Source: a virus
IMG/VR virus record: IMGVR_UViG_3300012920_000138
Span: 1-32,789 of that record
Direction: 5' to 3' (one strand)
Length of the DNA: 32,789 nucleotides
Part shown: piece by piece, positions 77 to 32,789 of the stretch
Position numbering within the stretch: the first letter of the stretch is position 1
Layout: the number at the start of each line of letters is the position of its first letter
Notes under the pieces: generated by a model
Told to the model about the DNA's origin: nothing
The model's database searches: none
What the model saw: the letters and a program-made list of their open reading frames with translations, nothing else
Translations under genes and position numbers: made by a program

Positions 77-1147
77 TTACTTCTTACCTATTCTACACTC
101 ATCCTCTAGGATGTCAAGAACTCTTTCTTTAAACTTCTTGTCCTCTAGGAGTTTCAGGAAGTCTTTGCTTTGGAACTTTTTATCTTTGCCGTCAACGCTG
201 ATAGTATACCAAGCACCGCTGCGAACACAACCAGGCGTGCCAGCGATGGCAGAAAGCCAGGAACCCTCGTCATCAACTCCAACTCGGTCATTAGCAAGGT
301 CAAATAATACATCAAACTCACAACTCCTTGGCGATGGTCCGAAGCGAGACTTTATCGTTTTGGCACTTGTGTGAAAGCCGATGACTTGCTTCTTCTCGTT
401 TAGAATCTGACCGTTGGCTTTGCCCTTGTGTTGAGTCAGCCAGATACGACTGGAAGCGTGGTAGGGTAAAGCCTTGCCACCTGGCTCAACTCGGTTGTCT
501 CCGAACATCACGCCGATGTTAGTTTTCAACTGGTTAGTGAAAACCATGGCAATCTGTTCTTTGCCAAGTGTCTCTGTGACTTTCCGCATACCTTTGGCTA
601 GTGCCTTGGCTGTCAGACCGATACGGCTGTTGGGATCATAATCACCCTCAACCTCCGCTTTGACTGGTGTGCCGGCAACGCTGTCCCATACAATACAGAC
701 CAAGCGATCAGGAGCCTTCTCACGAATACGACCGATCAGTCGCTCAATCGTCTCAAAGACTTCTTCAATCGTGCCGGGCTGAACATACAAGAAATTGTTC
801 TTGGTGTCAAGCCCCAACTGCTCCATGAAGTCTGGAGAAGCTGCGTTCTCTGTATCAATGTAAACAGCAACTCCTCCCATCTTTTGTGTGTTCGCCAAAA
901 TCTGTGTGACGATGAGACTTTTACCGCTGGCAGATTCACCAGCAATCGTGGTGAGCTTGCCGACAGGGATACCACCATCTCGACGGTTAGAAATAATATA
1001 ATCTAACAATGTCGATCCGGTTGAGATCCAAGTCTTTACATCTGTGGGATTGTCTCCGTGCAGATCGTATGCAATGTTTTCTTTTGCTGCCTTGTTTAGT
1101 TCGCTTCGCAAATCACTTACAAGGCTGTTTCCTGTTTTGTTTGCCAT
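77..1147 (-). CDS. uvsX: RecA/UvsX-like strand-exchange recombinase
   Basis: ATP-dependent recombinase expected to form filaments on single-stranded DNA and to catalyse homologous pairing during recombination-dependent replication. Seen in the 356 residues: Walker A GESASGKS (about 70-77), DTEN with a candidate catalytic glutamate (E100), Walker B ending VWDS (about 149-156), and an L2 region NQLKTNIGVMFG followed by EPGGKALPYHAS (about 205-231), very close to bacterial RecA NQIRMKIGVMFG. It is therefore more RecA-like than T4 UvsX is, although its location directly after a gp32 homologue matches UvsX function in T4-like phages. The C-terminal region keeps the RecA-type SGAWYTI segment. The start has a GGAGA Shine-Dalgarno sequence inside a small hairpin (1152-1167), so translation may be regulated. 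Function is secure; the name UvsX versus RecA is a matter of convention. Confidence 0.93.
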   Translation of the reverse strand: MANKTGNSLVSDLRSELNKAAKENIAYDLHGDNPTDVKTWISTGSTLLDYIISNRRDGGIPVGKLTTIAGESASGKSLIVTQILANTQKMGGVAVYIDTENAASPDFMEQLGLDTKNNFLYVQPGTIEEVFETIERLIGRIREKAPDRLVCIVWDSVAGTPVKAEVEGDYDPNSRIGLTAKALAKGMRKVTETLGKEQIAMVFTNQLKTNIGVMFGDNRVEPGGKALPYHASSRIWLTQHKGKANGQILNEKKQVIGFHTSAKTIKSRFGPSPRSCEFDVLFDLANDRVGVDDEGSWLSAIAGTPGCVRSGAWYTISVDGKDKKFQSKDFLKLLEDKKFKERVLDILEDECRIGKK

Positions 1148-1209: not shown

Positions 1210-1995
1210 CTACGCCAGTAAGTCTTCAAACGCAGACTCGATGTCGGACACGCCCTCAAGACCATTGTTGGTCTTCGTTGCAGCAGTCGTGTTACTGCTG
1301 TTGTTATAATGAGCAGTACCAGTGCTGTTATCGTCAGTATCCGTATCACCGAGAGTCTGACTCAAGAGTCGCTCGCAGTCCTCGTAAGAGGCTTTCTCAA
1401 ACACGCTGTTTGCAGGAGTGATGTTCTGAAGAAGAGTGTTGACCTGCTCCTCAGTCTCTGCAAGCTTGCTAGTGCGGCGCATTGGGCGAACATCAGTCGT
1501 TGGGAAGGCTTGACCGGACTTCTTGCCGTAATCAATACGGATGTCAGTACCCTTCTCAGTGTCAGTGATGTCACCGTACTCGGGATCAAGAACTACATCA
1601 AGCAGTGCTTGGTAGGTCGTGCGGGAAAAGCCCCACCAGCGAACGCCCTTGTCTTCCTCACCACGAACGACAATGGGAGCAAAGACTCGCATCTTGGGCC
1701 AAAAGCGCTTAGCAGCTTCCTTGGAGCCGTCAGTGCCTTCGTTCCACAAGCGAGTTCCCCACTCTGCAATGGGATCAGACTCACCGAAAGTCCGAGGGCT
1801 GAGAATCGTTGTCTTTCCTTCAGCACCGAGACCGTAGTGGTAATATGCCTCAAAGAAAGGATCTCCGCCTTCTGGACAGACCAAACGAATTTGGTGAGTG
1901 CCTTCTTCGGGCTTCCAAAAGTTGTCATCGGTGTTGCCACCTCGGTTAGTGAGAGCAGCGTGCTTTTGCCGCATCTTCTCTAGATCAATACCCAT
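1210..1995 (-). CDS. gp32-like single-stranded DNA-binding protein
   Basis: Predicted to coat single-stranded DNA at the replication fork and cooperate with the polymerase and recombinase encoded beside it. The 261 residues show the gp32 pattern: a basic, polar N-terminus (MGIDLEKMRQKHAAL), an OB-fold core with FWKPEEGTHQIRLVCPEGGDPFFEAYYHY (about 26-54; quoted only in part as key residues FW, IR, HY), VVRGEEDKGVRWWGFS, the family-typical PEYGDITDTEKGTDIRI segment, and a Ser/Thr/Asn-rich linker ending in an acidic tail DIESAFEDLLA used by gp32 proteins to contact partners. T4 gp32 binds zinc through one His and three Cys in the core; the corresponding stretch here (ILSPRTFGESDPIAEW) has no cysteines. 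AAGGAGATAAAT precedes the ATG. A hairpin lies in the leader. Confidence 0.85.
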   Translation of the reverse strand: MGIDLEKMRQKHAALTNRGGNTDDNFWKPEEGTHQIRLVCPEGGDPFFEAYYHYGLGAEGKTTILSPRTFGESDPIAEWGTRLWNEGTDGSKEAAKRFWPKMRVFAPIVVRGEEDKGVRWWGFSRTTYQALLDVVLDPEYGDITDTEKGTDIRIDYGKKSGQAFPTTDVRPMRRTSKLAETEEQVNTLLQNITPANSVFEKASYEDCERLLSQTLGDTDTDDNSTGTAHYNNSSNTTAATKTNNGLEGVSDIESAFEDLLA

Positions 1996-2127: not shown

Positions 2128-2586
2128 CTATTCTGAGTCCGCTGTTACAGCATCATCTGGGGCGGGTCCGTCCTCAATCTTGAAGATCTTCGATACCGAA
2201 ATGCTGTGGATTTTTAGGTCTTTCCCTGAAGTTAGCAGGATTGAATCCCTGTAGTTCTCCCAGCTTAATTTAAGGTCACGACCTGTCTTGCCGTCATGTT
2301 CAAGAGCAACAGCTTTATTCAGTGCGTTGATCGTGTAAAGGGTGTTTGTTTGCTTTTTCCGATGAACACGGATGGTGTATAGACGAGGATTGAAAGTCTT
2401 ATTCTTAGAGATGACCGCATTATAAGTCAAAAACTTATTGTTTGGATCTTCTTTGTCTTCTAGTAAAAATATGAACTTATTAGTTAGCTGTAGATGGTTT
2501 ACTATAAATTCAACTTCTTTGAATATCTCTTCTTCAGATAGGCTTTTCAAAAAAGATGCCAGCAATACTCCTCGTGGTTGACTCAT
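2128..2586 (-). CDS. Unidentified 152-residue protein upstream of gp32 homologue
   Basis: I do not recognise this protein. The frame is open from 2691, but I place the start at the ATG 2584-2586 (MSQPRGVLLASF). That ATG has an AAGAGGAAC Shine-Dalgarno sequence about eight bases upstream and does not overlap the preceding gene, while the longer version would overlap it by 49 bases and begins with an unlikely sequence. The product is soluble, mixed alpha/beta in composition, with a beta-rich middle rich in Lys and Thr (RLYTIRVHRKKQTNTLYTI) and an acidic end (APDDAVTADSE). It is followed by the gp32-like gene after the leader region. A copy of the ACTATTTAT motif lies 26 bases upstream of the start. 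A replication-accessory role is possible by position only. Confidence 0.7.
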   Translation of the reverse strand: MSQPRGVLLASFLKSLSEEEIFKEVEFIVNHLQLTNKFIFLLEDKEDPNNKFLTYNAVISKNKTFNPRLYTIRVHRKKQTNTLYTINALNKAVALEHDGKTGRDLKLSWENYRDSILLTSGKDLKIHSISVSKIFKIEDGPAPDDAVTADSE

Positions 2587-2642: not shown

Positions 2643-3503
2643 TTATATATGCTCTGGAACGTTCTGAATCTTTGAGGAGTAAGCCACGCAAATAACCATT
2701 ATTTTGTCGAAACTTGTTGGATAGACCGAAAAGCTAGTGGAAACGCCTTCTTCTTTATAGCTTTTCACGTGAGCTTTAATTTTCTTTGTTAAAGATGGGT
2801 CATCGGCAAGATCTTGCTTTGGGATCCCATAGAAAAAATGAATATCCCTAGCTTCTTGAAGTGGGAATAAAAGCTTAATATCTTGCTCCTCCTCCTCCAA
2901 GGAAGAGACGCCAAACGTTGCCAAACGAGAAATATTACTAGGTTCCATCTTGTTTGATAAAATAGACTCTGTATGACTGAAGAAGTTGACCATGGCAACA
3001 ATATATGAAATGAAATGTGAAATACTTTGTTCATAGTCGTGAATAGAAACATCGCCAACCAGTGTTTCAACAGATGTTCGATCAACTAGGTAAATCGCCT
3101 CAAATACTCCGCTACGAGCATATTCCTGCAAAACACCAAATGCGATCTTATCATCACGTCGTTTTATTTCTGAAGACATTGATCTGTCAGGCACGATATA
3201 GAGAACATTTAGCTTGGTGTCTTTTATTGTTTCTAAAATCTTTAGTGATGCTCCAGAGATGGGATCACCGCCTTCAAGAATCAGCAGGACTTCATCGGAT
3301 TCTTTTATAGACCTAAGATAGACAGAGACCTCGTCCTGATCGATGTTTTTTTCATAATCGTCCATCCCTGAGAATTCTCCCAGAGAAAGGCTGCCCCGCT
3401 CTCCTATTTTAGAATCTATCTTGTATATTCTGTATTCTGGGTGCTCTGTGAGATGCTCGGCAATCAAACAGCCCGTCTTCCCCAAGCCAATAACTTTATC
3501 CAA
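2643..3503 (-). CDS. Degenerate FtsZ/tubulin-superfamily protein
   Basis: The 286 residues follow the FtsZ/tubulin fold from end to end. There is an N-terminal Rossmann start KVIGLGKTG (3-11), a D30 at the end of strand 2, a hydrophobic strand plus glycine loop VLLILEGGDPISGASLKIL (72-90) at the place of the tubulin signature GGGTGTGA, a strand LNVLYIVPDRS (98-108), a second strand ending IYLVDRTSVETLV (137-149) like the FtsZ NDRL segment, and a C-terminal domain opening near ATFGVSS (195-201) and closing IMVICVAYSSK. The signature loop has only its outer glycines, and the T7-loop region (about 184-190, NKMEPSN) lacks the catalytic aspartates. It may therefore not hydrolyse GTP normally. The start is TTG (3501-3503): an in-frame stop lies two codons upstream, and AAGGAA sits seven bases before it. 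It overlaps the polymerase stop by eight bases. The assignment rests on motif and strand order read by eye. Confidence 0.68.
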   Translation of the reverse strand: MDKVIGLGKTGCLIAEHLTEHPEYRIYKIDSKIGERGSLSLGEFSGMDDYEKNIDQDEVSVYLRSIKESDEVLLILEGGDPISGASLKILETIKDTKLNVLYIVPDRSMSSEIKRRDDKIAFGVLQEYARSGVFEAIYLVDRTSVETLVGDVSIHDYEQSISHFISYIVAMVNFFSHTESILSNKMEPSNISRLATFGVSSLEEEEQDIKLLFPLQEARDIHFFYGIPKQDLADDPSLTKKIKAHVKSYKEEGVSTSFSVYPTSFDKIMVICVAYSSKIQNVPEHI

Positions 3504-4716
3504 ACCTTATTTCCTTCATAGAACCCAAGGAGTTACCCTTTTTTACATTTACTTCAAATTTACCAAAATTTGTTGACGACATCAACGCCAGCAATGACTT
3601 AATTAGCTTTTCATCTTCTTTTTTCATGTCAACCACAACGGCATCATGAATGAGAAAGGCAATATTTGACCCTGCGGACTGTGTGCGAAGCAAGTAGTCC
3701 ATTTTTACAGCCTGCTTTAGAGTCAATTCTGCGGCAGTTGATTGAACTAAGTAGTTGAGAGCGTGATGGCGTGAAGTATCCGGTATTTCCTTCCTAAATG
3801 GCGTTGTAACTGTCTCACCGTCCCAATATTCTTCGAGTAGCTTGTCTTTTTCGTAAAATTCAGCCAATTTAGCCATATCTTTACTTGACACAGCAGTGTT
3901 CGAGCCATATAACCATGCAAAAAAGGCTGTTTTGGCATCGCCACGGGTCACAATCTCTGTAAAAATATCATTCAAGTGGAATTCATGAACATCTCCGACT
4001 GGTTGGGGCTTGCCAAGCAACCCCAACAAGGTTCGAACCTCAGCACCGTTGAAATCCAACTCAACAAAAAAGTCATTCTGTGGTTTGATAGCAGACCTGA
4101 ACTCTTTGTTGAGCGTCAGGATCGGGAATGACCCTTTCTTTGTTGTCAATCTGCCAGTCTTTGTGCCAAACAAATTATAATCAACACGAGGGTTGTTCGC
4201 TAGTAGTGAAGTTGCCTGATTCTTCAGCTTGGGAGAAGTCAGAAACGACCTGACCATTCTTTGGTCTACTGTTACGGTTCTCCCTTTGATATCCTCTAGC
4301 ATCATTGACACATATTTGTAGAATTCATATCTTGAAGGCTTTGGGACCGTCTTTATGATGTGTTCACATATTTTATTTTTTACCTCACAAAAGTCAATCA
4401 GAAACCTTTGCGGTACAAGATCAAAAAAGCAGTTTTCAAAAGTGTCAACCTGAGATATAGCCAGGGAGCGCTTGAATGCCTGAATCTTGGAAGAGACATC
4501 CTCCCAATCTTCCACAAGATATTCTGGGATATTATCCGATATCTTGCCACCTTCAAGATACAGGGAAATATACTCAACATCCATGTCTCTGAGGTACGGA
4601 GCGTATTTCCAAGTTTTTGTAAGGTTGTCTGGGAACTTTTCTATGTCGAATAATAATTCGTTATGTGTATAAATTCCGACGCACTCTGTTTTGTCGTCCA
4701 GTGTCTGAAAGATCAT
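3496..4716 (-). CDS. Family-A DNA polymerase, polymerase domain only
   Basis: Template-directed DNA synthesis, presumably the replicative polymerase. All polymerase motifs are visible in 406 residues: TGRL (187-190); motif A DFNGAEVR (221-228) with metal-binding D221, steric-gate-position E226 and R228; motif B RGDAKTAFFAWLYG (258-271) with the invariant R258, K262, F266 and Y270 of the O helix; Q325 in NYLVQSTAAE; and motif C IHDAVVVD (356-363) with catalytic D358. Motif C reads HDA where most Pol I enzymes have HDE. The 180 residues before the TGR motif contain no recognisable 3'-5' exonuclease motifs and are shorter than a Pol I exonuclease plus thumb, so proofreading would need a separate gene. 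T4 itself uses a family-B enzyme. The start overlaps the 505-residue gene by 56 bases, but GAGGAAAC lies just upstream of the ATG. Confidence 0.92.
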   Translation of the reverse strand: MIFQTLDDKTECVGIYTHNELLFDIEKFPDNLTKTWKYAPYLRDMDVEYISLYLEGGKISDNIPEYLVEDWEDVSSKIQAFKRSLAISQVDTFENCFFDLVPQRFLIDFCEVKNKICEHIIKTVPKPSRYEFYKYVSMMLEDIKGRTVTVDQRMVRSFLTSPKLKNQATSLLANNPRVDYNLFGTKTGRLTTKKGSFPILTLNKEFRSAIKPQNDFFVELDFNGAEVRTLLGLLGKPQPVGDVHEFHLNDIFTEIVTRGDAKTAFFAWLYGSNTAVSSKDMAKLAEFYEKDKLLEEYWDGETVTTPFRKEIPDTSRHHALNYLVQSTAAELTLKQAVKMDYLLRTQSAGSNIAFLIHDAVVVDMKKEDEKLIKSLLALMSSTNFGKFEVNVKKGNSLGSMKEIRFG

Positions 4717-6178
4717 CTGTTTCCTCGTCAGAACTAAGTATATCTCTTACTGTCTCTATTGTTAAAGGATCAGTATCATAAGGTCCAATATACTGTTCTT
4801 GTGCGAAACGAAGTGAGCGCATATATTGATTGTCTGTACTGAGATTATAAACATTCATCATTTCTTGTATCTGCTGTCGGCGGATTGAATCTATCCTATT
4901 AGGATCTCTTTCTGCTAATCTTGCGAGATAAAATGTCTTAAGTCTCCAGCGTGGTCCAAACATTGCCTCAAACTCTTCTTCGGAAATTTGTTCTCTAGGC
5001 ATGGTCTCTATCTCAGGCACACAGTCAACCTGAACGTATTCTGGGCGACGAGTGACTGTTGGGAAGTTGGCAACGTATGTGTTATAAAATCCGAACAAAT
5101 ATGTTTGCAAAGTATCAGCATCATTTTTCCAAGTTTCATCATAAGCTGTTTCAAACAAAATATCAAACACTTGCTCTTGAGATGAAGCATCTCTTGCTGC
5201 CTGATACTCTTGATACCCTGGTTGAGGGTTTTCATCTTCATCAAAGTGAACAGCAATTCTTCTTTTCACATCTTCCATCCCTGGAACCTGCGAATACCCA
5301 AACGCCATGGGAGCTAATTCTTTCCTGAGAAGGGTTGGATCACAGGGCAACGGATCAGGGTACCCACTCTCAAATTCTTCGATTGGAACGCCATACATAT
5401 ATTCTTGCATTGCTGGATTTCTGAGGTCTGCGATCAGTCTCCAGGGAATATTCCTGTCAATAGAGAAGCCGTATTGCCCAACGATGTTTGCTACGAGTTC
5501 AAAGTTTTCATCCAAGTACTCATAAGCCTTTGGAAGGTCGTCGGAATACTTTTCTGTGCCTATTTCTATCATTAGTCCAGACATCAAGGGAGATAGGCTC
5601 GTTCCCTCTAGAAAACCACTGAAAGTAGTAGGTCCCACTAAAGAAACAGCGACATCAATATATTCATCAAACACCTTCATAAAATTATCAATGTTTGTTA
5701 TCCTTCTATCTTTATTCCCCATGGGCAAAAAATCGCCAACAAAAGAACTATAAACAAGGTTACGCATATATATGTCATATTGCAGAGTTGGAGGGTTCCA
5801 TGCCTTGATTATTGTAGGGTTTGCCCATGGGCTGTTTCGAAAAATAATATTTTGATTTGCTAACTCTCTTAGCCTCTGCGCTAAATCATACCAAGCATCG
5901 GCAACAAAGTTCAAAGCAAATTGACTTTCTCCATCGGTAAAATACAATGGTTTCAAATAGGTTTCGTCAAGTAAAACTGTATTTCCTTTAGTGTTGACGA
6001 TCCCATAAAATCTATCGTCACCCCAACTATCCATGGAATTTGTAATAAGGTCAATGGGAAAGATAGTAAACTTGTACGCAAGCCTTTCTGCATGAATACT
6101 CTTAGCTCCCAAATCATTGGAACCATAAGAATACAACAAAGGGTTGTCAATCGGGGACGCTCTTCTCTGATCAGCCAT
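4661..6178 (-). CDS. Unidentified 505-residue protein, probably virion structural
   Basis: I do not recognise a family. The product is acidic, rich in Asp, Glu, Tyr and Pro, with no signal peptide or membrane segment. It has an aromatic N-terminal part (LTNSMDSWGDDRFYG and similar), a middle rich in helices, and a highly charged C-terminus with SSDEETDD. Its start ATG overlaps the stop of the hub-like gene by one base (TAATG), a sign of translational coupling to the baseplate genes, and it lies at the end of the tail block before the polymerase. A baseplate or tail role is inferred from that position; the protein does not look like a fibre because it lacks Gly/Ser/Asn-rich repeats. Confidence 0.75.
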   Translation of the reverse strand: MADQRRASPIDNPLLYSYGSNDLGAKSIHAERLAYKFTIFPIDLITNSMDSWGDDRFYGIVNTKGNTVLLDETYLKPLYFTDGESQFALNFVADAWYDLAQRLRELANQNIIFRNSPWANPTIIKAWNPPTLQYDIYMRNLVYSSFVGDFLPMGNKDRRITNIDNFMKVFDEYIDVAVSLVGPTTFSGFLEGTSLSPLMSGLMIEIGTEKYSDDLPKAYEYLDENFELVANIVGQYGFSIDRNIPWRLIADLRNPAMQEYMYGVPIEEFESGYPDPLPCDPTLLRKELAPMAFGYSQVPGMEDVKRRIAVHFDEDENPQPGYQEYQAARDASSQEQVFDILFETAYDETWKNDADTLQTYLFGFYNTYVANFPTVTRRPEYVQVDCVPEIETMPREQISEEEFEAMFGPRWRLKTFYLARLAERDPNRIDSIRRQQIQEMMNVYNLSTDNQYMRSLRFAQEQYIGPYDTDPLTIETVRDILSSDEETDDLSDTGRQNRVRRNLYT

Positions 6179-8910
6179 TATAATTGTATACCGTGTGTTC
6201 TATGTTGAAAATAAGCATCAATTGTGGATTCAAAACCCCTGTTTGTTATTGAATGGTTAGACCTGACGACTCGATAATATCCACCTAGTGTCAATATTTG
6301 ATTGGCATACTCACCAAGCAATGCTCGACTGTCAACATATATCAGGTCTCCATTTCTATGTATATTATTTCCGTACATTTTAATCGAAACATTTTGAGGC
6401 AACACAAGCGCTCTACCAAAATTAGCTCCATCCGGACCTGTTCTCATGTTTTCAATACTCATCGCTTTAAACTGAGGGACGTCCTGCTTAGAGAAGTCAA
6501 ATGTTTTTGCTATTCCTCGGTCAGCACCCAAGACATAGTGGTATATGCCCCTCTTTTCATCATCCACTCTCTTGCCCTCATATTTTGCATTTGTTTGACG
6601 AGTGTATAAAACATAATAACTCTTGATCTTTTTATTATATGACGGCGCAAGTAGTCGAGGCTTTATTGTCTTAAGGCGGTCTTTATCTAGAAGCAACAAT
6701 TTAGACTTAACTATCGTTGCCCGTCCTGTTGCTAGTGCAACTTCGCCCTCGGTTTTTATCTCCTCTTCTGTCATATACAATGTGTAATCAAAATTTATTC
6801 TAAATTTGAACGAAGACAGGTTGTTTAGCAACCTGCCGACAGCAGCCAAAAGTCCATCTAGAAACTGCCTAAAAGGATATTCATCAACATTTCTAGCAAT
6901 TATATTATCATAAATGAACTGCGACAGGTAATCTAATGCTATTGGAATATCATAAAGGGAGTAATTTGTATTATCATTTTCAAAGCCTGGTACACCGAGC
7001 TTCTTTGGAGAAAAGGTGCCAGTAATAAACTTAATGTCTTCTCGGATCTCTGCGTTTTGCATTGCTGCTAACAAAATGTCTCCAAGAAATACATATGGAA
7101 TCGGGACAGCATCCTCATCGTCTAGAGGCTCCTTATCACCCCTTTTAAAGGTAACATCCTTTGCTAGGCTGTTTTTCTTAAGGAAGTCTATTTTGTCTGC
7201 GTCTGACATCTTTGCCAGTCCTACTAATTTAGCAGCGGTGCCTTTTCCTGCTCCTTTGACTTTTTTTGCAAAATCAAGCTCAATCACATTTTCTGTGTTT
7301 GCAAAACCGTGGGCTACATACACCCTACTTGTATTTCCTGTTTCGCCAATCAAGTTATTTATCAAAGAGGCATACCTCTCGATTCGCAAAGACTTTTTAG
7401 CCCTGCCATATACTGTCTCAACTAAATTCATTTGTGAATCAAGTTTGTCCAGCTTCTTTTTATCCCCGGCGGTGGGTTTGCTATCTCCCAAAGTAGTTAG
7501 GATAAGTTGTCTTTCTCCGTCTAAATAGTCGGCCTCTCTCTTTAGCCTCTTCAAGTTCACAGGAACAAGGGTTGTTTCGGAAACAAGTGTGCTAAAGTTT
7601 TTCATTTGATGTTCTAAGTATCCATCTTTGAGAAGACTTTTGACGTCGATCTCTTCTGCTGAAACAAGAACCTGTTGGCTATTGAGGTTTCCTTTAGAAA
7701 AATTATTTTGCCCCAAAACATCAGACTCCCCCGAACTCAAGTAGTTGTCAGAAGAGCCAACATATTCCAGCGTTAGTGTTGTTGGACCCTCTTGTGAAAA
7801 GTTTACATTATAATCTACCAAGTTTAGCAATATAGTTGTTTGAGTATTTCTAACCGCCTCTTTGAAATCTTCTAGATCTTTTGCTCTTTTTTTCGCCCTT
7901 GTTTCTGCATTGGGGTGCATGTTGGAAGAATAAATGCGCTGAAGTTCTGCCTCTCTGCCCGAAGGAACTGCCCAGCCAACTAAAACTTTCAGTTGGCGAA
8001 AATCATTACTTGCTTTGTCATCAACTTCAGGTGCGTTTTTTCCTGGCTTCAAGCAGTCAAAAAGGGTTTTGTTGTTTTTCTTCAAGAATGCAATCTTATC
8101 GCCAATGTCGTTACTTACAGACGCAGCGTTAACTGTCTTTCTTCCGTTAGTGAACATAAACTTCAGGTAATCTTGGTTTACTAATTCTGACAGTGTGCCG
8201 AAATATAGCTCCAACTTTGCTTTGATGATTTTATCGCCCTCGTGTTTATTGTCATAACGCCAAGTAAATGACTTTATGCCAGCCTCAGTGCCACCTCTTT
8301 TGAGCGTCTTGTCTATCTTTCTGCTGGCTCGGGCATTTGCAAGTTTTACAATTCTTTCAGCGCTGGTAAAATCACTAAAAAATATCTCTTCTTGTTGATA
8401 CTTTCTATCGACAACTTTTTTCTTGTTCACAGTTTTTATAATGTTTTTTTCAGCAACAATAAAGAACCTCAATGTTGGTTCAAGAGATCCTAATTGCGCT
8501 GGGGTTGCTTGCAGCAGTGGCTTCATATTTGTGGGATTCAATAGGCTAGAGGTTACATCCTCTGGTGCTATGCCTACTGTTGGTAAAACGTATTTATTCC
8601 TTTCTAGTGCCGCTGTGTTTTCGAACGAGCTTAGTACAATATCATTACCAGCCCTAAATATCGGGGCTGTGGCATTCATAACAAATTTCATGTTCTTCAA
8701 GAGAAGCTCTTGGTGTGAAAAAGTAAGGGCTTTTTTTCTTTCTTCTGCTTGAGCCTTTGCAAGCGCCTCAGCAGCTTTTTTAGCTGCGGCTTTTTTGCGG
8801 CGCTCTTCTTCCTGTCGCTTTAAAGCTTCTTCAATGGCTTGAGCTGCTTTATCCCCAGCAGCGGCGGCGGCTTTCCGTTGGGCTCGACTCCTATATCGTC
8901 CGTTGCTCAT
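6178..8910 (-). CDS. Large baseplate hub-like structural protein
   Basis: This 910-residue protein opens with an unusual Ala/Lys/Glu-rich stretch (about residues 8-65) predicted to be a long charged coiled coil or single helix. It is followed by a large beta-containing body with many Lys residues. The last 80 residues (ALVLPQNVSIKMYGNN, DLIYVDSRALLGE, LGGYYRVVRSNHSI, FESTIDAYFQHR) resemble the end of baseplate hub proteins of the gp27/gpD type, where a short domain closes with a GGYYRV-like strand. The gene sits between the LysM/gp53-like wedge protein and the 505-residue protein, sharing one base with both neighbours (TAATG), as expected in a baseplate module. I see no lysozyme domain. Virion structural is likely; hub identity is an inference from the C-terminus and context. 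Confidence 0.7.
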   Translation of the reverse strand: MSNGRYRSRAQRKAAAAAGDKAAQAIEEALKRQEEERRKKAAAKKAAEALAKAQAEERKKALTFSHQELLLKNMKFVMNATAPIFRAGNDIVLSSFENTAALERNKYVLPTVGIAPEDVTSSLLNPTNMKPLLQATPAQLGSLEPTLRFFIVAEKNIIKTVNKKKVVDRKYQQEEIFFSDFTSAERIVKLANARASRKIDKTLKRGGTEAGIKSFTWRYDNKHEGDKIIKAKLELYFGTLSELVNQDYLKFMFTNGRKTVNAASVSNDIGDKIAFLKKNNKTLFDCLKPGKNAPEVDDKASNDFRQLKVLVGWAVPSGREAELQRIYSSNMHPNAETRAKKRAKDLEDFKEAVRNTQTTILLNLVDYNVNFSQEGPTTLTLEYVGSSDNYLSSGESDVLGQNNFSKGNLNSQQVLVSAEEIDVKSLLKDGYLEHQMKNFSTLVSETTLVPVNLKRLKREADYLDGERQLILTTLGDSKPTAGDKKKLDKLDSQMNLVETVYGRAKKSLRIERYASLINNLIGETGNTSRVYVAHGFANTENVIELDFAKKVKGAGKGTAAKLVGLAKMSDADKIDFLKKNSLAKDVTFKRGDKEPLDDEDAVPIPYVFLGDILLAAMQNAEIREDIKFITGTFSPKKLGVPGFENDNTNYSLYDIPIALDYLSQFIYDNIIARNVDEYPFRQFLDGLLAAVGRLLNNLSSFKFRINFDYTLYMTEEEIKTEGEVALATGRATIVKSKLLLLDKDRLKTIKPRLLAPSYNKKIKSYYVLYTRQTNAKYEGKRVDDEKRGIYHYVLGADRGIAKTFDFSKQDVPQFKAMSIENMRTGPDGANFGRALVLPQNVSIKMYGNNIHRNGDLIYVDSRALLGEYANQILTLGGYYRVVRSNHSITNRGFESTIDAYFQHRTHGIQL

Positions 8911-32375: not shown

Positions 32376-32789
32376 TTATTTCAAGAACTTTTTGAGTCCT
32401 TCAATTCTTTTAGCAGGGCGTTTCAAGCCGCTGACCAACGTATAGGTCACCAACTTATCACGTTTATCATCTTCGTAGATTCCACGATGAATGATTGCGC
32501 CACCAGTCAAAGCTGCCAGAGTATCAAATCCAAACTCAATACTATCCATCAACCCAACTGTCTCTTCAAAAATTTCTTCACCGCCGACGACAATGCAAGC
32601 AGCACCTGTGGCAGTTGTCAAGTCAAAACCTTCAGCTAAAAGTGTTTTTTCTAAGTTCTTTTTGAGAGCGCTGGAAATAGCTGTTTCACTTTCTACATCC
32701 TTGACGCTAGTAACGCCCATGATCATGCAGCCAGGTTGGCGCATAATACTGTCATAATCTGTAGCATCAAAGGTTGTGTACTCTGAGTC
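32376..32789 (-). CDS. C-terminal part of an FtsZ/tubulin-like GTPase, cut by window edge
   Basis: The frame is open at the right edge; 137 residues are visible and the start lies outside. The visible part aligns with the T7 loop and C-terminal domain of FtsZ: TTFDATDYDSIM against INVDFADVRTVM, GCMIMGVTSV against MAMMGSGVA, TATGAACIVVGG against ARGVLVNITGG, and GGAIIHRGIYEDDKRDKLVTYTLVSGL (key II..G...D...D...VT....G) against NIIWGAVIDPELEDEVRVTVIATG. Both catalytic aspartates of the T7 loop (E. coli FtsZ D209 and D212) have counterparts in FDATD (fragment residues 7-11), so GTP hydrolysis on polymerisation is likely. The protein could be a phage tubulin of the PhuZ/TubZ kind or an FtsZ-like filament. 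A shorter start at 32744 would lose the T7 loop. Confidence 0.78.
   Translation of the reverse strand, partial: DSEYTTFDATDYDSIMRQPGCMIMGVTSVKDVESETAISSALKKNLEKTLLAEGFDLTTATGAACIVVGGEEIFEETVGLMDSIEFGFDTLAALTGGAIIHRGIYEDDKRDKLVTYTLVSGLKRPAKRIEGLKKFLK

Follow-up and report, generated by a model that had tools for sequence, protein, structure and literature searches.

We describe a viral protein family with a predicted tubulin/FtsZ fold, the gene of which follows that of a family-A DNA polymerase. Its member in the window, the whole 32,789-nt stretch of viral DNA analysed here, carries an altered nucleotide site, and we read this protein as a tubulin-fold scaffold of the replication module that no longer needs GTP, with a probability of roughly 0.45. 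The polymerase-linked tubulin-like (PLT) family is defined here by its position after a ~400-residue family-A polymerase, with at most one small gene between. It is invisible to standard sequence libraries and, across a large set of uncultured T4-like phages, seems to be universal. The gene pair is apparently undescribed in the open-access literature, where we found no tubulin or FtsZ relative obligatorily paired with a DNA polymerase, no phage pseudo-tubulin and no tubulin encoded beside a phage polymerase. On an independent polymerase tree, sister clades with guanine-contact residues and one clade without them display steps of a tubulin giving up its nucleotide. The family makes two ideas testable: that a tubulin fold works without GTP, and that phages other than the PhuZ-type jumbo phages couple their replication to a filament of their own making.

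The window gene starts with TTG right at the first β-strand and shares 8 nt (3,496–3,503) with the end of the polymerase gene, in agreement with the first-pass annotation of this DNA, which had placed the start there and noted the overlap. The start codon falls inside the final codons of the polymerase (TTT GGA TAA), and the same junction recurs in more distant relatives with an ATG or GTG start. Along the protein, KVIGLGKTG corresponds to loop T1, GGDPISGA to T4, VPDRS to T5 and LVDRTS to T6, and the chain stops ~10 residues past the last strand of the model. Neither the window protein nor its family gave usable results in searches of Pfam, PHROGs and PDB sequences; in Pfam, the window protein matched neither PF00091 nor FtsZ. 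The best weak library matches, MurD-like_N and ribosomal L24, were discarded as chance. No relatives were found among 50,697 phage records or, with the peptide patterns tried, in cellular genomes.

Table 1 Features of the window discussed in the text
Feature	Position	Strand	Evidence or remark
UvsX recombinase	77..1147	-	PF00154 E 4e-43; phrog_97 E 2e-76
gp32-like single-strand DNA-binding protein	1210..1995	-	PF08804 E 8e-7; phrog_1192 E 1e-17
Small protein, about 152 aa; usual next gene, other ORF in distant lineage	2128..2583	-	No family match
Polymerase-linked protein, predicted tubulin/FtsZ fold, probable pseudo-GTPase form	2643..3503	-	286 aa, TTG start
T7 region NKMEPSNISRL, no Asp pair, residues 184–194	2922..2954	-	Alignment; intact phage tubulin has FDATDYDSI
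H7 guanine-contact position, S162 instead of Asn	3018..3020	-	Alignment
T6 guanine-contact position, R142 instead of Asn	3078..3080	-	Alignment
T4 glycine-loop position, GGDPISGA, residues 78–85	3249..3272	-	Alignment
Family-A DNA polymerase, 406 aa	3496..4716	-	PF00476 E 2.9e-12; last 8 nt overlap tubulin-like gene
C-terminal 137 residues of intact TubZ-like tubulin	32376..32789	-	Cut by contig end; T7 FDATDYDSI, Asps present

An AlphaFold2 model of the window protein, computed on an alignment of 14 homologues (59–75% identity), reached a mean pLDDT of 78.9 and a pTM of 0.78. It was the best of five (the remaining four at 38–62), of moderate confidence overall and least certain between T6 and the beginning of H7 (pLDDT about 51–61). 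The first 50 Foldseek matches in the PDB were all FtsZ or TubZ (E from 4.9e-12, for FtsZ), and the best viral matches were phage FtsZ-like and tubulin models. A second structure aligner placed CetZ at the top (Z 23.7, 258 residues, 3.2 Å), with TubZ, FtsZ and tubulins next at Z >20 over residues 1–286, C-terminal domain included. A distant homologue, L310, was modelled from a separate 60-row alignment holding no window-clade sequence; the five models agreed (pLDDT 93.4, pTM 0.91), and the top Foldseek matches were TubZ, in first place, CetZ and FtsZ. Its matches span residues 1–289, with CetZ at Z 24.2 (3.1 Å, 264 residues).

Both models align with tubulin, FtsZ, CetZ and TubZ chains at Z 20–24 over about 256–280 residues, and both contain the N-terminal Rossmann-like domain, helix H7 and C-terminal domain that characterize the superfamily. 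The S7–S8 stretch has no helix in either model; FtsZ has helix H9 there. By prediction, the window protein adopts the complete two-domain FtsZ/tubulin fold. This fold, C-terminal domain included, had been proposed from the letters of the sequence, as had the FtsZ order of elements (KVIGLGKTG, glycine loop, VPDRS, LVDRTS, C-terminal domain). Two predicted models now bear out the former and the full-length match to FtsZ, CetZ and TubZ the latter; no other Rossmann-type family lacking the tubulin C-terminal domain turned up among the first 50 Foldseek matches.

Profile comparisons made without structure prediction point the same way. A profile of distant homologues matched that of the intact phage tubulin described below (P 4.2e-6, 184 columns), and an unrelated control profile, that of the polymerase, gave P 0.049 over 13 columns. 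The window-clade profile also matched this tubulin, over the segment that runs from the helix before S6 to H7 (P 0.0016). When the family HMM was run against six-frame translations of the loci then collected, the intact tubulin was the only match outside the family; the reverse search from the intact tubulin found, beyond itself, only a member of the tubulin-like family. PF00091 gave sub-threshold matches at T1 and T4 of distant members (E 0.0055 on L308).

We analysed the nucleotide site in 130 aligned family rows, 45 from the window clade and 85 from outside it, with fewer rows in some columns. The T4 signature GGGTG(S/T)G is missing in all 130, and sister clades carry G-rich variants such as GGGGAISG. 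The window-clade loop mostly reads GG[DE]P[IV]SG, with D or E at the third position (residue 80) in 39/45 and never G; outside the clade this position is G in 59/84. The T6 column lines up with N204, an invariant residue of the intact phage tubulin, and with the Asn through which tubulins contact guanine; window-clade rows have K or R here in 37/45 and Asn in none (elsewhere Asn in 77/82). The H7 Asn is present in 1/45 window-clade rows and in 78/82 elsewhere. At T7 the window reads EPSN, the register being taken from sequence alignment only, and the last column is acidic in 12/44 window-clade rows and 57/81 outside. The window clade still has the T1 glycines, Gly78–Gly79 and Gly84 of T4 and, in part, the T5 Glu/Arg pair (E112 in 27/45, R116 in 37/45), so some ligand could still bind. 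From these residues we infer that the window protein very probably does not bind GTP; sister-clade members with both the T6 and the H7 Asn plausibly bind guanine nucleotide.

The first-pass annotation had described a degenerate GTP site and a T7 loop without an aspartate pair, and had suggested a pseudo-GTPase. The degenerate site holds for every window-clade member, all of which have changed T4 and T6 and 44/45 a changed H7, the T7 loop of the window indeed has no such pair, and the lost motifs lend support to the pseudo-GTPase idea within this clade. Whether the loops are always degenerate has a divided answer: they are throughout the 45-sequence clade, but outside it the T6 and H7 Asn are nearly always kept.

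For close pairs with unsaturated dS, the computed dN/dS of the tubulin-like gene is 0.02–0.05, like or below that of the polymerase. This purifying selection argues that the altered pocket is not the decay of a dead gene, and since homologues of 50–75% identity also retain the same altered loops, the changes are not due to chance. We followed the T6 state on a polymerase tree, built by a quick search and independent of the pocket residues. It requires 4 changes against a shuffled mean of 39.5 (0/500 shuffles as low), and the window clade of 45 forms one side of a supported branch. The T6 Asn would most simply have been lost once for this clade, the direction being read as loss because the intact tubulin also has Asn.

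Viral contigs scanned for the polymerase yielded 159 loci, from two scans that each took the best 80 of more than 500 relatives; within this set, the tubulin-like gene follows the polymerase in 156/156 loci with downstream sequence. The window gene does so with its 8-nt overlap. In 22 of the 156 the tubulin-like start is shifted downstream by about 300–430 nt, and those of the 22 that were inspected have a small gene in the interval. Where divergence was greatest among the inspected loci, with 43–44% identity between polymerases and 34–36% between tubulin-like proteins, the pair is kept and the next gene is replaced. The surrounding replication module comprises PolA, the tubulin-like gene, the small ORF, gp32, UvsX, dCMP deaminase, 5'–3' exonuclease, DnaB helicase and ribonucleotide reductase. 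Given the strictness of the polymerase linkage, the deepest association of PLT is with replication, although gene linkage is no proof of physical contact between PLT and the polymerase.

The same phages also encode an intact TubZ-like tubulin. The window had been annotated as carrying a second tubulin-like protein, and the word is apt: the end of an intact tubulin gene lies at the far edge of the window (Table 1). A full-length homologue (L061:808-1944(-)) matches PF00091 (E 4.9e-9), the TubZ C-terminal family PF22453 (E 1.7e-7) and, in the PDB, RepX/TubZ (E 4.8e-14). The T1, T6 and T7 residues are all present in full-length intact tubulins, whose T4 loop is rich in glycine; these proteins occur in dozens of viral contigs and are mostly >85% identical to one another. 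The phage records searched held no close relative, the nearest being that of Bacillus phage G (22% identity). In the window clade the gene adjoins terminase, and every contig that spans the two regions has the intact tubulin and PLT together, among them contigs of 172, 179 and 191 kb and the L003/L072 and L007/L071 contigs. Contigs with the intact tubulin and no tubulin-like protein also showed no polymerase, and in the sister tubulin lineage L155–L163 the contigs do not cover the replication module and hence give no linkage data.

Presence of the intact gene varies among lineages. Two sister lineages have no tubulin gene in the syntenic stretch from the SbcCD-like gene to terminase, which is covered in both. 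The intact tubulin was also not found in PLT-carrying contigs of 184, 162, 147 and 131 kb; contigs may be incomplete, so the absence rests more on the syntenic sites than on contig counts. A different intact tubulin (GVGGGGGKI, GGGGGTGSS, LDNEK) is encoded among the head genes of a phage from a sister lineage (L404:1015-2055(-)) and is weakly PhuZ-like (phrog_4733 E 3e-4). Across lineages, then, it is the polymerase-linked protein that stays constant and the intact tubulin that varies. Since PLT also occurs in lineages whose syntenic site has no tubulin, simple decay of a duplicated intact tubulin does not account for it. The annotation's suggestion that one copy of a duplicated cytoskeletal protein had turned regulator is not supported as written, given those empty sites and the polymerase linkage.

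Service in replication is our leading reading for the window protein, held tentatively and at a little under even odds. Guanine nucleotide was most likely a ligand of the ancestral PLT, with a structural role or as a slow switch; the window clade would have given up the pocket once, leaving a nucleotide-independent scaffold. PLT and polymerase are most likely made together by translational coupling, and we infer that PLT works at the replisome or close to it, either as one of its structural subunits or by tethering the phage DNA under replication. Where a phage also makes the intact TubZ-like tubulin, PLT might be an adaptor or cap joining the replication machinery to the filament. A broader statement would make the tubulin fold a core component of the viral replisome: a polymerase partner, ancestrally guanine-nucleotide-binding, nucleotide-free in one clade and possibly linking replication to an intact tubulin filament. 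We consider this rather less likely than not.

Regulation of the phage's own filament is a possible reading that we judge unlikely. PLT would cap, seed or co-assemble with the intact tubulin encoded about 30 kb away, in a manner comparable in principle to that of ARC3 on chloroplast FtsZ or γ-tubulin on microtubules. The joint presence of both genes in the window clade fits this, as does the coincidence, in one clade, of the lost guanine Asn and a TubZ-like gene beside terminase; this is, however, a single shared evolutionary event and no test of co-dependence. The linkage, moreover, is to the polymerase and not to the tubulin gene, and PLT is found in 131–184-kb contigs with no detectable intact tubulin and in the two lineages with an empty syntenic site. 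We dropped co-occurrence as the sign of a dedicated pair from the primary reading because of the lineages with PLT alone. That PLT couples replication to the intact tubulin may be seen either as a rival to the replication reading or as its extension, and is likewise improbable.

A tubulin that still uses GTP and forms filaments, with unusual loops, has little to recommend it for the window protein. The conserved glycines of T1 and T4 and the partly acidic T7 column would suit such a protein, as would the plausible guanine binding of sister members; yet the window clade is without the T6 Asn, the H7 Asn (44/45) and a normal T4 signature. Phages commonly block host division, and a non-hydrolysing FtsZ mimic could cap host protofilaments during infection. 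We regard such a decoy as very improbable: the full FtsZ-like fold without the GTPase signature would suit it, but the gene sits in the replication operon and overlaps the polymerase gene, PLT is universal and as strongly selected as the polymerase, unlike the usual accessory host-takeover genes, and sister clades keep the guanine-contact residues. Mis-assignment of another Rossmann-type protein, suggested by the lack of significant single-sequence family matches and by weak local MurD-like and TrkA_N matches, already fails at the prediction level against two independent models that match tubulin-family chains through the C-terminal domain and the profile match to phage tubulin, and is extremely improbable.

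Among known systems, archaeal CetZ (3zid, 4b45, 4b46) gives the best structural alignment, at 12–16% identity; its nucleotide loops are intact and bind GTP or GDP in those structures, unlike those of the window protein. TubZ/RepX (PDB 4ei7, 2xka) and the intact phage TubZ-like protein resemble PLT in the whole fold, with local sequence likeness that starts at the end of the helix before S6 and extends across H7. The window protein differs in lacking the GTP signature, the guanine Asn and the T7 Asp pair, in being encoded with a DNA polymerase, and in being shorter (286 versus about 380 residues), with no N-terminal extension or C-terminal tail. With FtsZ it shares the two-domain fold, length and element order, but not the GGGTG(S/T)G loop or the N-terminal or C-terminal tail. 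To our knowledge, no degenerate FtsZ paralogue is linked to a DNA polymerase; in chloroplasts, ARC3 is a degenerate FtsZ relative that acts on chloroplast FtsZ. Archaea have FtsZ paralogues without key motifs, of which FtsZl1 keeps the GTP signature loop (PMC2875224). Such degenerate paralogues share the loss of motifs and elements with PLT, but they are cellular and not phage proteins. In the PhuZ/phiKZ TubZ group of jumbo phages, PhuZ retains a catalytic Asp in T7, and its C-terminal tail takes part in polymerization (PMC3678025). PhuZ is, like PLT, a phage-encoded tubulin fold; the window protein has no T7 Asp, tail or PHROG PhuZ match, and neither the intact nucleotide loops nor the C-terminal tail by which TubZ and PhuZ are recognized.

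Several further observations concern the neighbourhood of the gene pair. A recombination point is apparent at or near the polymerase/tubulin-like junction between L243 and L245, where the polymerase genes are nearly identical (dS 0.14) and the adjoining tubulin-like genes have dS 1.52. A small gene lies exactly between polymerase and tubulin-like gene in L291 (2695-3003), L288 (5188-5499) and about 20 other loci; in L291, the one example scanned, it matches phosphoribosyl-ATP pyrophosphohydrolase (MazG-like). The window polymerase has only 406 residues, and a gene of its own, farther down the module, encodes the 5'–3' exonuclease. The conserved 152-residue protein has distant relatives (36%) in other phages near gp32/UvsX, with no tubulin-like gene in the stretch read. 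Naming a host through the terminase gave Flavobacterium phage immuto (67% DNA identity over only 8% of the query), a match too weak to use. Upstream of the window polymerase lie genes for two large conserved proteins of 505 and 910 residues (4661-8910(-)), with no PHROG match. In a 190-kb relative, a gene close to the replication module (L154:18432-19130(+)) has a DUF3293 match and a weak S-adenosylmethionine lyase-family match, and is a possible anti-restriction gene.
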